From positions 1-64,000 of the forward strand of contig JAJPHM010000052.1 of NCBI GenBank assembly GCA_021325295.1: a stretch of 64,000 nt of DNA, read 5' to 3'. Within the stretch, counting starts at the first letter, position 1. Each line of letters opens with the position of its first letter. Shown here piece by piece: positions 19,333 through 59,985 of the stretch. The notes under the pieces were generated by a model. It did no database searches, had not been told where the DNA came from, and saw only the letters and a list, made by a program, of their open reading frames with translations. Source of the DNA: Nitrososphaeraceae archaeon. GTDB taxonomy: Archaea; Thermoproteota; Nitrososphaeria; Nitrososphaerales; Nitrososphaeraceae. The translations under genes and the position numbers were made by a program.

Positions 19333-19473
19333 CTACCAGCTAGTTCGTTTTCCTGTTATCTGCGTATAAACGCAAAGAGGATTTCAATCCTTGTTTTAAT
19401 GGATTTGACTTTCAGACTTGTATGCCCTTTATTAAACCGGGCAATTGTAGAAGTGTACAAGCTGACTTGACAG

Positions 19474-53177: not shown

Positions 53178-53356
53178 TTGTGATAAGTATCAGTGGATTT
53201 GTTGTCCTTGAAATAGGAATAGTAATACTTGCCAGTACAGATAAAATACTACTATTAATGCGATATTATTAGTTATTCAAAAGGGATTTAGTGAGCATAC
53301 ATCATTAGTCAGGCAGACCTCTGTTAATGAAAAATGGATTCTGTGTAGAAGGAGAG

Positions 53357-53399
53357 CGTTACTGCTAATGGTAACGGCGTTACTACCTGTAGCAACGCC
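53357..53399. other. Tandem stem-loops beside the tRNA end
   Basis: CGTTAC-N8-GTAACG (53357-53376) is followed at once by GGCGTT-N12-AACGCC (53376-53399), whose inner part adds CTA/TAG pairs. The pair lies about 50 bases from the tRNA-Asp 3' end. They may be terminators or recombination-site structure. Confidence 0.4.
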
Positions 53400-53449
53400 A
53401 GTTCTCTCATAAATAGCGAATTCCGTAAAAATCTACCTTGTTAAGCGTA

Positions 53450-53467
53450 ATAGAGCGCCCGGGCCGG
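53450..53467 (-). repeat. 18-bp direct repeat, copy within tRNA-Asp (candidate att site)
   Basis: Identical to 44157-44174. It covers T-stem, acceptor and discriminator bases of tRNA-Asp plus six flanking bases. Confidence 0.6.
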
Positions 53468-53588
53468 GATATTCGTGTGCTTTTAGAGCACATTTCGAAC
53501 CCGGGTCGAAGGAGTGACAGTCCCCCATACTAGACCGGACTATACAATGCTGGTCTTGATTACCAGAACATCTCTATACTACCCGGGC
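53456..53588 (-). tRNA. tRNA-Asp (GTC) with insertions in the D-loop and T-loop
   Basis: Minus strand: acceptor GCCCGGG (53588-53582) pairs perfectly with CCCGGGC (53463-53457), discriminator G at 53456. Anticodon loop CTGTCAC gives GTC (53518-53516). T-stem CCGGG/CCCGG is perfect. Two extra segments break the normal layout. One of 34 bases lies in the D-loop between two copies of GTATAG (53579-53574 and 53545-53540) and contains a CTGGT/ACCAG hairpin. One of about 24 bases lies in the T-loop after TTCGAA and contains a TGTGCT/AGCACA hairpin. Removing both leaves a 75-base tRNA with normal D-, anticodon and T-arms, with GG in the D-loop and TTC in the T-loop. They are therefore probably non-canonical introns; the exact splice sites are not fixed. 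Confidence 0.88.
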
Positions 53589-53721
53589 GCACGTAACCAA
53601 GACTTTTGAGGAAACCAATTAAAATGTTTTGTTATCATCTAGCCAAGATGGATAGGTAGATTCATTCTGAAAATGCAGCAAGACAGCAAACTGCAATTCA
53701 AAACCTATTCTGCCATCTACA

Positions 53722-55332
53722 TTACAATGCTTTGCGTATTATTGCCGAGCCCGGGTCCATGCTCTGCCACATTACGCTATATCCAAGCTTTGAGACAAGG
53801 TCGGCATGGGAGTCTTCAGGAATTCCATTCTTTGACAAAAGCACGCAGGCTTCGGCGAACTTGTTAACCCCTTCAAGCACAGTTCTCAACTTGTCTGCTT
53901 TGGATTTAGATATCAGGTACATTCCTGCCCTGACAAACCTATCATTTTTTGATGCAACTTTGGACACAAGCTCTTCTGGAACGCCGTTTTTTCTAGCCAA
54001 TTCATTAATCGAGATTATCTCTGCCTCTGGGTCCAGTTCTATCCTGAATTCAGGATCTGCAACTTTTCTTTCTATGAATTCCCTGTCTATGCTTTTCAGA
54101 TAATCAAGGATGGGTTTGATAGGTACGCTGTCGTCTTTGTACAAGATGAGCCTCTCCTTTGATATCAGAGAAGACAGCTTGGAGCATCCAAGCTCTTCAT
54201 TCACAGCCACGAATAGCTCTATTTTGCCACTTTCTGCAACGTCTAGCATCTTGCCTACTTTCCTCTCAAGATACTCTTTGGTCCAGAACCCTATGATCTC
54301 AAGGTATACTCTTCTGTTGTATTTTTCAAACATAAAATCAGGGATCAGAGCCTTCCCGCCAGATACTACGATTGGATCCGGTTCTCTTATCAACTGCCAG
54401 CCGGTTGCCGATTTTTCAAACCTTGACGCAAATTTTTCTTCAACCGCGCTATCAAACATCTCATGAACTCTAGAATATGGATCGGTTAGCAATTTTGGGA
54501 CATCTGCATCTGATATCTTGAACTGGTAAATCTTTCTGCCAGCCATCGTTTTTCTTACAATCCAAGAATCAATGTACCATTTTTTCGAAGATACAATAGA
54601 TGGAAGCAGCTTTGCAATTGATGTCCCGTACCTGTCAGTTAGCTTGAAAAGGCTCATCGGTCCGTCAAGGGAGCATACAATCTCTTTCTCTCCAGTCCTC
54701 CCATCTGAATTGCCTTCTGGCCTCTGCTGCAGATTATACATCAGCCCAAGCCTCTTTACATTTCTCAGCACGTCTTTCCAGCTGGTTCCTCCGCTTACAT
54801 AAAAGTCAAGTTTTGTACAGTTGAAAAGCAGAGTCTGCATAAGCGACAGGTTGTACCATCCCACAAGCGTTCTCTCATCCACAGGCTCAAAATGGTCAAG
54901 CACAAGGTTCTCTTCTAGATCGCCCCACATTGACTGCAGGACTTCCTTAGCAGAAATACCCAGCTTTGCCGCAACTGCACTAACTATCTCATTTCTTTCC
55001 AGATCTGTGAGTGCAAAACCCCGCCTTGCAGATTCTTCAAATAACGCTTTTCTAACAGAAAACGGGTCAGCTGCTATCCCCGTGGCCATATTAAACTCGC
55101 ATCTTCTTTCCAAAAGAGCATAGAACCCCCTGACAAGCTTGTAATCATCGTATTGCGATTCTATTGCGGCAATCCTTTTTTCCAGCAAGCCTTTTCTTTC
55201 TTTTTTCCTGTGCGACTCTTCAAACGCTTTTATCATTCTGCTGGCAAGATCCAGATCTTCAGCGTCTACACAGAACAGTGGAGTAATGCTTCCCCCTCTT
55301 GTCCTGATTCGCAAGAGCTGCAGTGGAAGCAT
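53722..55332 (-). CDS. bax1: Bax1-type nuclease, XPB partner (DUF790)
   Basis: The 536-residue protein matches the DUF790/Bax1 family: N-terminal LRIRTRGGSITPLF, a central helical region and a C-terminal nuclease-like part with LIPDFMFEKYNRRVYLEIIG (about 380-400), the PD-(D/E)xK-type core Asp...Glu. Bax1 binds XPB and cuts DNA next to the bubble opened by it, as an archaeal version of the XPB-XPG repair step. Its ATG overlaps the XPB stop by one base (TAATG), so translation is coupled. Confidence 0.9.
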   Translation of the reverse strand: MLPLQLLRIRTRGGSITPLFCVDAEDLDLASRMIKAFEESHRKKERKGLLEKRIAAIESQYDDYKLVRGFYALLERRCEFNMATGIAADPFSVRKALFEESARRGFALTDLERNEIVSAVAAKLGISAKEVLQSMWGDLEENLVLDHFEPVDERTLVGWYNLSLMQTLLFNCTKLDFYVSGGTSWKDVLRNVKRLGLMYNLQQRPEGNSDGRTGEKEIVCSLDGPMSLFKLTDRYGTSIAKLLPSIVSSKKWYIDSWIVRKTMAGRKIYQFKISDADVPKLLTDPYSRVHEMFDSAVEEKFASRFEKSATGWQLIREPDPIVVSGGKALIPDFMFEKYNRRVYLEIIGFWTKEYLERKVGKMLDVAESGKIELFVAVNEELGCSKLSSLISKERLILYKDDSVPIKPILDYLKSIDREFIERKVADPEFRIELDPEAEIISINELARKNGVPEELVSKVASKNDRFVRAGMYLISKSKADKLRTVLEGVNKFAEACVLLSKNGIPEDSHADLVSKLGYSVMWQSMDPGSAIIRKAL

Positions 55333-56834
55333 TAGTTTTTACTGCCTCCTTCTTCCAGGCTATCAATAGGGTCAGCTGGGCTTGTGTCGTCAGTGTCAAT
55401 GTCAGTGCCAGTACTGGTACCAGTTGCCTTGTATTCGTCTCCATCTCTGCTCTCACCTTCTCCTTCAGACTGGCGCAAAGCTTTCCTTCTCTTTGCACTT
55501 GTGCCTGTTTCCCTTGTCTCAGCTGATACAATTTCAATCAGTTTTGCTTTTTTTCCCTCAACCGGCTTTGGCCTCAGCAGTCTCCCCAGCCTCTGTATAA
55601 ACTCCCTTGCACTTCCAGTTCCGCTGACAATTATCCCAAGTTCTGCATCCGGAACGTCGACTCCTTCATCCAGAACTTTTGAAGTGACGATAGCGCTATA
55701 CCGGCCTTCCCTGAATCCCTTGAGAACATCCTGCCTCTCTTCTCTGCCGGTCCTGTGGGTTATGAACGGGATGAAAAACCTATCAGAAATTGCATATACT
55801 AGGCCATTATGCTGCGTAAATATTATCGTCTTTGTACCCCTGTTTTCAGCAAGGATCTCTTGGAGCTCGTCTACCTTGGCTCTGCTGTTGAGAGCTATAT
55901 CCAGAGCCTTATTCCTTGCAAGCAGAGCTTCTCTTGCCAGCTTGCTTCTTGCTGATGCCATAACCAGCTTTTGAAACGAGCCGGGATAGTTCATGTTAAA
56001 TCCCAACTTTTTGAGGCAGAGCTGATATCTTGCAAAATTACCCTTGTACTGGTCAACTTCGTCTGGCAGCATATCGACTCTTCTTCTTTCAATTTCGTAC
56101 GGCGCAAGGTGTTTTCTTTTGGCAAGGTCTTCAGGGTAAGACTGGAAAACTATGCCGCCAACAAGTCTCGGAAAGTCCTTGTGTAGGTTGTCCTCCCTTT
56201 CAATAGTAGCAGTCAGCCCAAGCCGGTAGGGAGAAGCCATCTGCTCTGCTATGGATCTGTATCCAGGCGCCGCCAGGTGATGGACTTCGTCAAAGACCAG
56301 CAGGGAGAACTTGTTGCCAATGGAAGATGCCCGTATGTACGCTGAATCATAGGTAGATACTGTGATTGGTTGTATGTCATCAATACCGCCTCCTATATTG
56401 CCTATCTTTATGGAAGGGAAATACCTTGACAGCACTGTCGTCCACTGATCCATAAGATCAAGTGTTGGAACCATGATAAGCGCAGAAGAATTTACTTTTG
56501 CAATTGCGCTAACTCCAATTAGCGTCTTGCCAGAGCCTGTAGGAAGGACTACACACCCTCTTTTACCTGCTTTATCCCAGTTGTCAAGTGCCTTTTGTTG
56601 GTAGTCTCGTAGTGAAACTCCCGGATCAAGCTCGATGAAAGGTGACGGTATTGTATCCATGACTCTGTCGTCATATTCTATTCCACTTTGCTGGACATAT
56701 CTGAGGATATCAGGATAATTTAGGGCTGGTGCCCTCAGTACGTTTGTTCTTGGATCTAACGTAGCAAATGGAACATGAGCAAGACCGCGGATCAGTATAG
56801 TGCCGCTGTCATACGTTAGCGACGCTTTAAGCAC
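55332..56834 (-). CDS. xpb: XPB/Rad25-family DNA helicase
   Basis: The 500-residue SF2 helicase has an N-terminal damage-recognition-like domain (about 1-70), Walker A LPTGSGKTLIG (about 96-106), box FDEVHHL (about 184), the XPB-specific RED motif TIEREDN (about 211-217), a thumb-like insert (about 245-310) and the second lobe with TKTIIFTQHNG, DEGVDVPDAELGI and QRLGRLLRPK. A charged low-complexity tail (about 440-500) follows, rich in Glu, Asp and Thr. It opens DNA for nucleotide excision repair together with Bax1. The start is GTG. It diverges from the ahcY gene. Confidence 0.94.
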   Translation of the reverse strand: MLKASLTYDSGTILIRGLAHVPFATLDPRTNVLRAPALNYPDILRYVQQSGIEYDDRVMDTIPSPFIELDPGVSLRDYQQKALDNWDKAGKRGCVVLPTGSGKTLIGVSAIAKVNSSALIMVPTLDLMDQWTTVLSRYFPSIKIGNIGGGIDDIQPITVSTYDSAYIRASSIGNKFSLLVFDEVHHLAAPGYRSIAEQMASPYRLGLTATIEREDNLHKDFPRLVGGIVFQSYPEDLAKRKHLAPYEIERRRVDMLPDEVDQYKGNFARYQLCLKKLGFNMNYPGSFQKLVMASARSKLAREALLARNKALDIALNSRAKVDELQEILAENRGTKTIIFTQHNGLVYAISDRFFIPFITHRTGREERQDVLKGFREGRYSAIVTSKVLDEGVDVPDAELGIIVSGTGSAREFIQRLGRLLRPKPVEGKKAKLIEIVSAETRETGTSAKRRKALRQSEGEGESRDGDEYKATGTSTGTDIDTDDTSPADPIDSLEEGGSKN

Positions 56835-58257: not shown

Positions 58258-59985
58258 ATGCGGATGCCGGAAAATAAAGGGTCGGAACTGATCAAAGATA
58301 ACAGCGGTAACACAACAAAACATGAAAACAGCGCAGTGATAACTAGCGCCCTTCCGTATGCAAATGGAGAGATACACCTTGGCCACATCGCTTCCACATA
58401 CCTTCCGGCAGATATCTTTACGAGGTTTCTGAGGCTTGACGGGACAAAGGCATTTCATATCTGCGCCACAGACGATTTTGGCACCCCTATCCTTATCAGG
58501 GCAGAAAAGGAAAAGAAAACGCCATCCGAATACGTGGATTTTTGGAATAGACGCGATTATGAGGATTTCAAGTCTTTGGGAATTTCATTTGATTTCTTTT
58601 CCAAGACAAGCTCGCGTGAAAATATCGAGTTCGTACAATACGTATTCAAAAAACTTTATGAAAATGGCCACATATACGAACAGAACGTTATCCAGTTCTT
58701 CTGCACATTTGATAACAAATTTCTGCCCGATCGATACGTTGTAGGTAAATGCCCTTACTGTGGAGCAGAGAACCAGTATTCTGACCTGTGTGAAAAGTGT
58801 GGCAGAGTACCGGAGAAGATACTTGACCCAAAGTGTGCTATATGTGGCAGGGAGCCTATCAAGCAGGAAAGCAAGCATTACTTTTTCCGGCTATCCGCTT
58901 TTTCTGATAGGCTCAAGAGATGGCTCTCAGAGAACCAGAACCTGCAGCCTGATGTAAAGAACTATGTGATCAACTGGATAAATGAGGGACTTCAGGATTG
59001 GGATATCACAAGGGACCTGTCATGGGGAGTCCCTGTCCCAATGCCGGATGCGGCAGAGAAGGTCTTTTACGGCTGGTTTGACAACCATCTCTGCTACATA
59101 TCATCACTTGTCAAGTTTATTGAAGACAGAGGAGGAGACGGCAAAAGATTCTGGAATCAATCACGTGTCTACCACTTTATCGGCAAAGACATAGTTTACC
59201 ACCACTACCTTTTCCTGCCTGCCATGCGCATGGGGATCAATGAGGAGTTCAAGTTGCCTGACTATATCCCCACGAGAGGACACCTTATGCTCCAGAATCA
59301 AAAGATATCAAAAAGTAGAAACTGGTATATCGGCCTGATGGAATTCACCTCCACATTCAACCCCGACTACCTGCGGTTTTACATTGCATCGATAACATCA
59401 TACACACAGACAGACCTCAACTTTGACTGGGATTCGTTTTATGAAAGGATAAACAACGAGCTTATTGCAAACATTGGCAATTTTGTAAACAGAGCGCTTT
59501 CTTTTACTCATAAAGCATTCACCGGCAGAGTCCCGGAGCCAGCTGGGAGTGCAGAGCTGACTGCCGATGACCGCGCCAGCATCCAAGAAATAGAGAAGGC
59601 CCCTCAAGAAGTCGGACTGTTACTTTCTCAAAACGAGCTTGACAAGGCCCTCAAGAGAATCCTGCAATTTACCACTCATTTCAACCAATATTTCCAGAAA
59701 AAGGAGCCCTGGAGCAATAAAACAACTGCCAATACCACACTTTACATTGCTGTAAATGCTGTGAGGACTACTGCCATCATGCTGGAGCCCTTCTTGCCAT
59801 TTTCTTCAGAGAAGGTATGGAGCCAGCTCGGGTTGAGCGGAAGCGTACATGAACAGCAGTGGAATTCTGCATGTGAACTCAGGGTTCCAGCTGGCCATGC
59901 ACTTGGAAAGGTAGAGCCAATCTTTCGCAAGATAGAGCGAGCTGAAATTGAAAAGCAAAAGGCAAAGCTGGGAAAAAGAGAATGA
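58258..59985 (+). CDS. metG: Methionyl-tRNA synthetase
   Basis: The 575-residue class I synthetase has the HIGH-type motif GEIHLGHIAS (about 40-49), the zinc-knuckle insert CPYC...CEKC...CAIC (about 165-205), the FHFIGKD-type phrase YHFIGKDIVYHH, and the KMSKS-type motif KISKSR (about 345). It ends near residue 575 without a C-terminal tRNA-binding (EMAP-like) domain. It charges tRNA with methionine. nadM starts 15 bases after its stop, so the two are likely in one operon. ATG start. Confidence 0.95.
   Translation: MRMPENKGSELIKDNSGNTTKHENSAVITSALPYANGEIHLGHIASTYLPADIFTRFLRLDGTKAFHICATDDFGTPILIRAEKEKKTPSEYVDFWNRRDYEDFKSLGISFDFFSKTSSRENIEFVQYVFKKLYENGHIYEQNVIQFFCTFDNKFLPDRYVVGKCPYCGAENQYSDLCEKCGRVPEKILDPKCAICGREPIKQESKHYFFRLSAFSDRLKRWLSENQNLQPDVKNYVINWINEGLQDWDITRDLSWGVPVPMPDAAEKVFYGWFDNHLCYISSLVKFIEDRGGDGKRFWNQSRVYHFIGKDIVYHHYLFLPAMRMGINEEFKLPDYIPTRGHLMLQNQKISKSRNWYIGLMEFTSTFNPDYLRFYIASITSYTQTDLNFDWDSFYERINNELIANIGNFVNRALSFTHKAFTGRVPEPAGSAELTADDRASIQEIEKAPQEVGLLLSQNELDKALKRILQFTTHFNQYFQKKEPWSNKTTANTTLYIAVNAVRTTAIMLEPFLPFSSEKVWSQLGLSGSVHEQQWNSACELRVPAGHALGKVEPIFRKIERAEIEKQKAKLGKRE

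Follow-up and report, generated by a model that had tools for sequence, protein, structure and literature searches.

A tRNA-Asp gene in a Nitrososphaeraceae archaeon, very probably interrupted by both a D-loop and a T-loop intron

Introduction

Archaeal tRNA introns that lie at non-canonical positions and form bulge-helix-bulge (BHB) motifs belong to a class reportedly established by Marck and Grosjean in 2003. Here, we analyzed a tRNA-Asp gene in a stretch of 64,000 nucleotides (nt) from a Nitrososphaeraceae archaeon (contig JAJPHM010000052.1 of assembly GCA_021325295.1, positions 1 to 64,000; hereafter the window), and conclude from its sequence that it is very probably the functional tRNA-Asp(GUC) gene of this genome, with one BHB intron in the D-loop and another in the T-loop that would be spliced out to leave a 75-nt tRNA. 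This kind of gene structure is already known, and the locus is a further case of it.

Archaeal non-canonical introns have either a BHB or a relaxed HBh' form at their exon-intron junctions, as in this gene (PMC4090602, PMC6379350), and Thaumarchaeota are credited with (alpha-beta)2 splicing endonucleases, a type that is lenient on BHB form (PMC4090602, PMC6379350). Position 59/60, the site of the T-loop intron described below, is on the list of known archaeal intron positions; the D-loop site, 15/16, is absent from the positions that the same review prints as examples, in a list that ends in 'etc.' (PMC4090602). According to the tRNAscan-SE 2.0 paper, 107 non-canonical tRNA introns were counted in Thaumarchaeota genomes, and multiple introns per gene were noted (PMC8450103). 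In the neighbouring lineage of Caldiarchaeum subterraneum, three tRNAs have more than one intron, like this gene, but these are reported as tRNA-Leu, tRNA-Glu and tRNA-Thr rather than tRNA-Asp; tRNAs of that organism have introns in the D-, variable and T-arms (PMC3293823). D-arm and T-arm introns also occur together in the tRNA-Ile(UAU) gene of Cyanidioschyzon merolae, although this organism is a red alga and its gene has a further intron in the anticodon arm, for three in total (PMC9602550). In the accessible part of the open-access literature, we found no description of a single D-loop intron fixed in tRNA-Asp across a family.

Results

Structure of the gene

An initial annotation, made from the letters of the window, had placed a tRNA-Asp across positions 53456-53588 (133 nt). 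These coordinates and lengths proved exact; the strand, which had been left unstated, is the minus strand. The gene and its parts are as follows.

53456..53588, minus strand: tRNA-Asp(GUC) precursor gene, 133 nt, with G1 at 53588 and discriminator G73 at 53456 (direct reading and covariance model)
53574..53588, minus strand: exon 1, positions 1-15 (acceptor 5' strand, U8 A9, D-stem 5' strand GUAU, A14 G15)
53540..53573, minus strand: predicted D-loop intron, 34 nt, at site 15/16, relaxed BHB (HBh'), same site family-wide
53494..53539, minus strand: exon 2 (U16 to T-loop A59, with the anticodon arm and variable loop in between)
53516..53518, minus strand: anticodon GTC (GUC), in the uninterrupted loop CUGUCAC (direct reading)
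53470..53493, minus strand: predicted T-loop intron, 24 nt, at site 59/60, strict 3-4-3 BHB
53456..53469, minus strand: exon 3 (U60, T-stem 3' strand, acceptor 3' strand, G73)

The precursor reads GCCCGGGTAGTATAG, the 34-nt insert, TCCGGTCTAGTATGGGGGACTGTCACTCCTTCGACCCGGGTTCGAA, the 24-nt insert and TCCCGGCCCGGGCG. Direct reading bore out both inserts at the lengths first given, each with its own hairpin, as well as the perfect acceptor stem (GCCCGGG/CCCGGGC), the perfect T-stem (CCGGG/CCCGG) and the GTC anticodon. There is no intron at 37/38, the anticodon loop CTGTCAC being intact, and both inserts lie outside that position. Taking them out leaves 133 - 58 = 75 nt, as had been calculated, and yields a mature tRNA-Asp(GUC) in which every stem is intact. 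This 75-nt form agrees with relatives, of which the intronless G041 and G050 show GTATAGTCCGG. CCA is not encoded at the 3' end of the precursor gene (53456..53588).

ARAGORN gave no tRNA-Asp match at 53456-53588, and there was no Rfam match at the locus at the gathering threshold; both misses are expected because of the D-loop and T-loop inserts. With the inserts in place, a covariance model of mature tRNA-Asp, trained on sequences that included the locus's own exons, scored it at 69.0 bits (E 2.5e-12 in 119 kb).

Splice motifs and cut sites

Folding the junctions for BHB motifs, a check proposed with the initial annotation, gave a strict 3-4-3 BHB at the T-loop and an HBh' form at the D-loop. 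In the T-loop motif, the T-stem is followed by a central helix (H) between exon bases UUCG (54-57) and CGAA of the intron, by bulges AA|A and UA|U, and by an inner helix (h') of UGUGC/GCACA plus one pair. The unconstrained minimum free energy fold of the sense strand contains this motif, and shuffled T inserts reproduce its central and inner helices with a probability of 1.5e-5. The predicted T-loop cut, at 59/60, is fixed by the BHB geometry.

In the D-loop motif, exon bases GUAU (10-13) pair with GUAU of the intron, the bulges are AG|A and AG|U, and the inner helix consists of GAUG/CAUU and then CUGGU/ACCAG; shuffled D inserts reproduce both helices with a probability of 1.75e-4. The insert is indeed flanked by GTATAG, as had been noticed. 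The cut sites had for this reason been called ambiguous, which no longer holds, as relatives and BHB geometry place the predicted cuts at 15/16 and 59/60. In those relatives whose introns end in A or T, 15/16 is the sole D-loop cut that keeps both G15 and U16, and the BHB geometry selects the same site as these intron ends. A pairing of GATG with CATT directly beside the exon was also considered for the D insert and was dropped, as in relatives the partner of GTAT (10-13) proved to be the end of the intron.

Several features of the D-loop motif weigh against the two-intron reading. The exon-side helix is missing, with A9 facing C17 (hence the HBh' form), two of the central pairs are G-U, and the free fold favours a slightly shifted UAUA/UAUA pairing. 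In addition, of 51 D introns from relatives, 30 have an A opposite base 10, leaving only three central pairs.

Conservation and covariation in relatives

For the comparison, 61 genomes were searched by DNA sequence, named genomes by pattern, and 70 genomes of the family and 400 of the class by covariance model. Across 45 distinct loci, the exons are almost constant (exon 1 is the same or nearly the same) and the introns diverge freely. Inner-helix pair 1 holds in all 51 distinct D introns, pair 2 in 50 and pair 3 in 45, through exchanges among G-C, A-U and G-U. Not one of 10,000 shuffles paired as well in this helix, a figure that is not a probability since shuffling ignores shared ancestry. 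In six of 10 T introns, a G at exon base 57 stands opposite a C of the intron; in two, an A stands opposite a U, and the other two have a mismatch. The predicted splice motifs, then, covary across relatives.

Within Nitrososphaeraceae, a tRNA-Asp match was found in 49 of 70 genomes, and all 49 are consistent with an intron at 15/16 (most were read as sequence and the remainder inferred from hit length). Elsewhere in the order, the D intron occurs in families f2, f7 and f14 and, in f5 (G040, L194), at 15/16 along with what appears to be another insert, this one in the 3' acceptor strand of tRNA-Asp. It is absent from genomes of several further families, G041 and G050 being examples. The 59/60 intron occurs alone in families f3, f4 and f17. 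This window has both introns together, as do three genomes of genus g12 (G079, G081 and G082, Nitrososphaera or Nitrososphaeraceae) and two Nitrososphaerales records (L096 and L105), where very short D introns of about 18 and 16 nt, respectively, share a tRNA-Asp with 59/60 introns. Over all records, D introns span 16-42 nt and T introns 20-34 nt. Reading the gene as a tRNA with two non-canonical archaeal introns is therefore supported by the relatives together with the BHB motifs at both junctions. The claim that such a pair is rare was overstated: it is uncommon but recurrent, with at least five other genomes carrying it, and the D intron is in every tRNA-Asp recovered from the family. One genome, G074, had been taken as intronless from its hit length; this was rejected, as its locus L193 carries a 31-nt D intron.

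The other 21 family drafts, several of them more than 90% complete, gave no detectable tRNA-Asp (G004, G014, G027, G033, G087, G088, G089, G091 and G092 of genus g5, and 12 others; family f1). Nine of the 12 genomes of g5 are among them. A tRNA-Asp interrupted elsewhere was sought in the 21 using an anticodon-arm pattern, the 3' part and a relaxed model (8 of the 21), and none was found. Loss in binning is the likely cause, and the gene may instead be broken up further; these genomes neither support nor weaken the two-intron reading.

In a tree of methionyl-tRNA synthetase (MetRS), the g12 clade and the window's genome are sisters (support 95/89), and the T intron is patchy within g12. Gain in a common ancestor followed by several losses may account for this, as may repeated gain; both fit.

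Outside these lineages, a Hermodarchaeota record (L082, JAEOTB010000037.1) holds an Asgard tRNA-Asp with a 30-nt D-loop insert that fits the 15/16 BHB form, with three central pairs and a 9-bp inner helix. Such an intron may have arisen independently or be of great age.

Splicing machinery

The genome has two EndA-family genes. The catalytic-type alpha subunit matches Aeropyrum pernix EndA (3p1z, 3.8e-44) and keeps Lys-Pro-Lys, the Lys-Pro-basic motif of the Crenarchaea-specific loop; the second EndA-like subunit is divergent. By these sequence features, the genome is predicted to encode a broad-specificity (alpha-beta)2 splicing endonuclease. Enzymes of this type excise introns with a relaxed BHB, whose known sites include D- and T-loops (PMC6379350, PMC12397907). 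A gene for the ligase RtcB is also present (PF01139, 587 bits, C69:16094-17404).

Two more tRNA genes of this genome, read by eye, appear to have introns in the same region: tRNA-Arg(CCT) has an apparent D-loop intron at 15/16 (L038, G000 C35:49740-50050) and tRNA-Gln(TTG) an apparent intron near the start of the D-arm (L039, G000 C14:150040-150350). ARAGORN misses or garbles both.

Gene copy number and alternative explanations

The locus could instead be a decaying tRNA-Asp pseudogene with two insertions, the working copy being elsewhere: standard tRNA finders miss it, and the assembly, in 79 contigs, could lack a small piece. However, the exons keep all stems and match those of relatives, and the insert site is kept family-wide with compensatory changes. 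A second, uninterrupted tRNA-Asp gene, which the initial annotation had named as evidence that would count against it, was sought as a second GTC tRNA across the 99.73%-complete genome and was not found; the two other strong model matches in the genome are tRNA-Glu and tRNA-Gly. As neither broken stems nor a redundant intact copy was seen, a pseudogene is very improbable.

A recent mobile insertion, for which the GTATAG at both ends of the D-loop insert would be the target-site duplication, is likewise highly unlikely. One proposal in the literature is that tRNA genes become disrupted through integration (PMC3293823), but the D intron is family-wide, and the repeat is accounted for by the splice motif, since two GUAU strands pair with each other (U-A, A-U and two G-U). 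In relatives, the copy at the intron end reads GTACAG, GTAAAG, ATACAT, ATAAAA and so on, so that the hexamer repeat is lost and only what pairs with bases 10-13 is kept.

That the inserts are permanent extra loops of an unusual mature tRNA is barely credible, as the stable hairpins that would suit this are set against inserts that split the bases making the D/T elbow, lengths that vary widely across relatives, the existence of intronless relatives and the presence of genes for splicing enzymes.

Surroundings of the gene

Upstream of the gene lies one further element.

53615..53630, minus strand: AAAACATTTTAATTGG, probable B recognition element (BRE)/TATA promoter element, 27-42 nt upstream of G1

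Of 45 tRNA-Asp loci, 40 have a similar TTTAA-type motif at 31-40 nt upstream, and the upstream TTTTAAT-type box is probably the promoter of the tRNA-Asp gene. About 50 nt past the 3' end of the gene, positions 53351-53406 form a strong double hairpin (about -23 kcal/mol on either strand), of which there is no further copy within the window. The MetRS gene lies at 58258-59985, about 5 kb from tRNA-Asp. As several g12 genomes also have MetRS and tRNA-Asp on one contig, 7-26 kb apart, the tRNA-Asp locus looks syntenic. At 53722-56834, a DUF790 gene, which we take to be Bax1, adjoins an XPB-like helicase gene, an arrangement that fits the archaeal XPB-Bax1 pair. A single Rfam CRISPR-DR7 match at 19381-19417 (minus strand) has no repeat array around it.

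Discussion

The sequence shows the anatomy of the gene, its splice motifs and their covariation, the genes for the enzymes and, within the searches made, a single tRNA-Asp gene; transcription, cutting, joining and charging are inferred. In the precursor, the first intron would pair through its end with exon bases 10-13, and the second likewise with exon bases 54-57, each intron thereby presenting a bulge-helix-bulge to the (alpha-beta)2 endonuclease. The enzyme would cut between bulge bases 2 and 3 (15|i1 and i34|16; 59|i1 and i24|60), RtcB would ligate the exons into the 75-nt tRNA, and CCA would be added after exon joining. Because intron pairing ties up the D-stem 5' strand and the elbow bases of the T-loop, the mature D-arm and elbow would be expected to form only once both introns have been removed.

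A bolder proposal is that the 15/16 intron of tRNA-Asp is maintained by selection across Nitrososphaeraceae, not merely tolerated, and together with the T-loop intron acts as a checkpoint on folding and modification. We consider this speculative and rather unlikely. If it were true, the elbow pairs and the D- and T-loop modifications would come only after the endonuclease had cut in both loops, and it would matter which was cut first.

For annotation, the finding is a correction: common tRNA finders overlook the gene unless intron-aware archaeal settings are used, and aspartate decoding would look missing. For the family, it provides a natural series for the evolution of splice motifs, with the 15/16 intron fixed in one tRNA and the 59/60 intron coming and going. 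The multi-intron tRNAs studied best are those of hyperthermophiles, whereas many members of this series are archaea that live in soil at moderate temperature.
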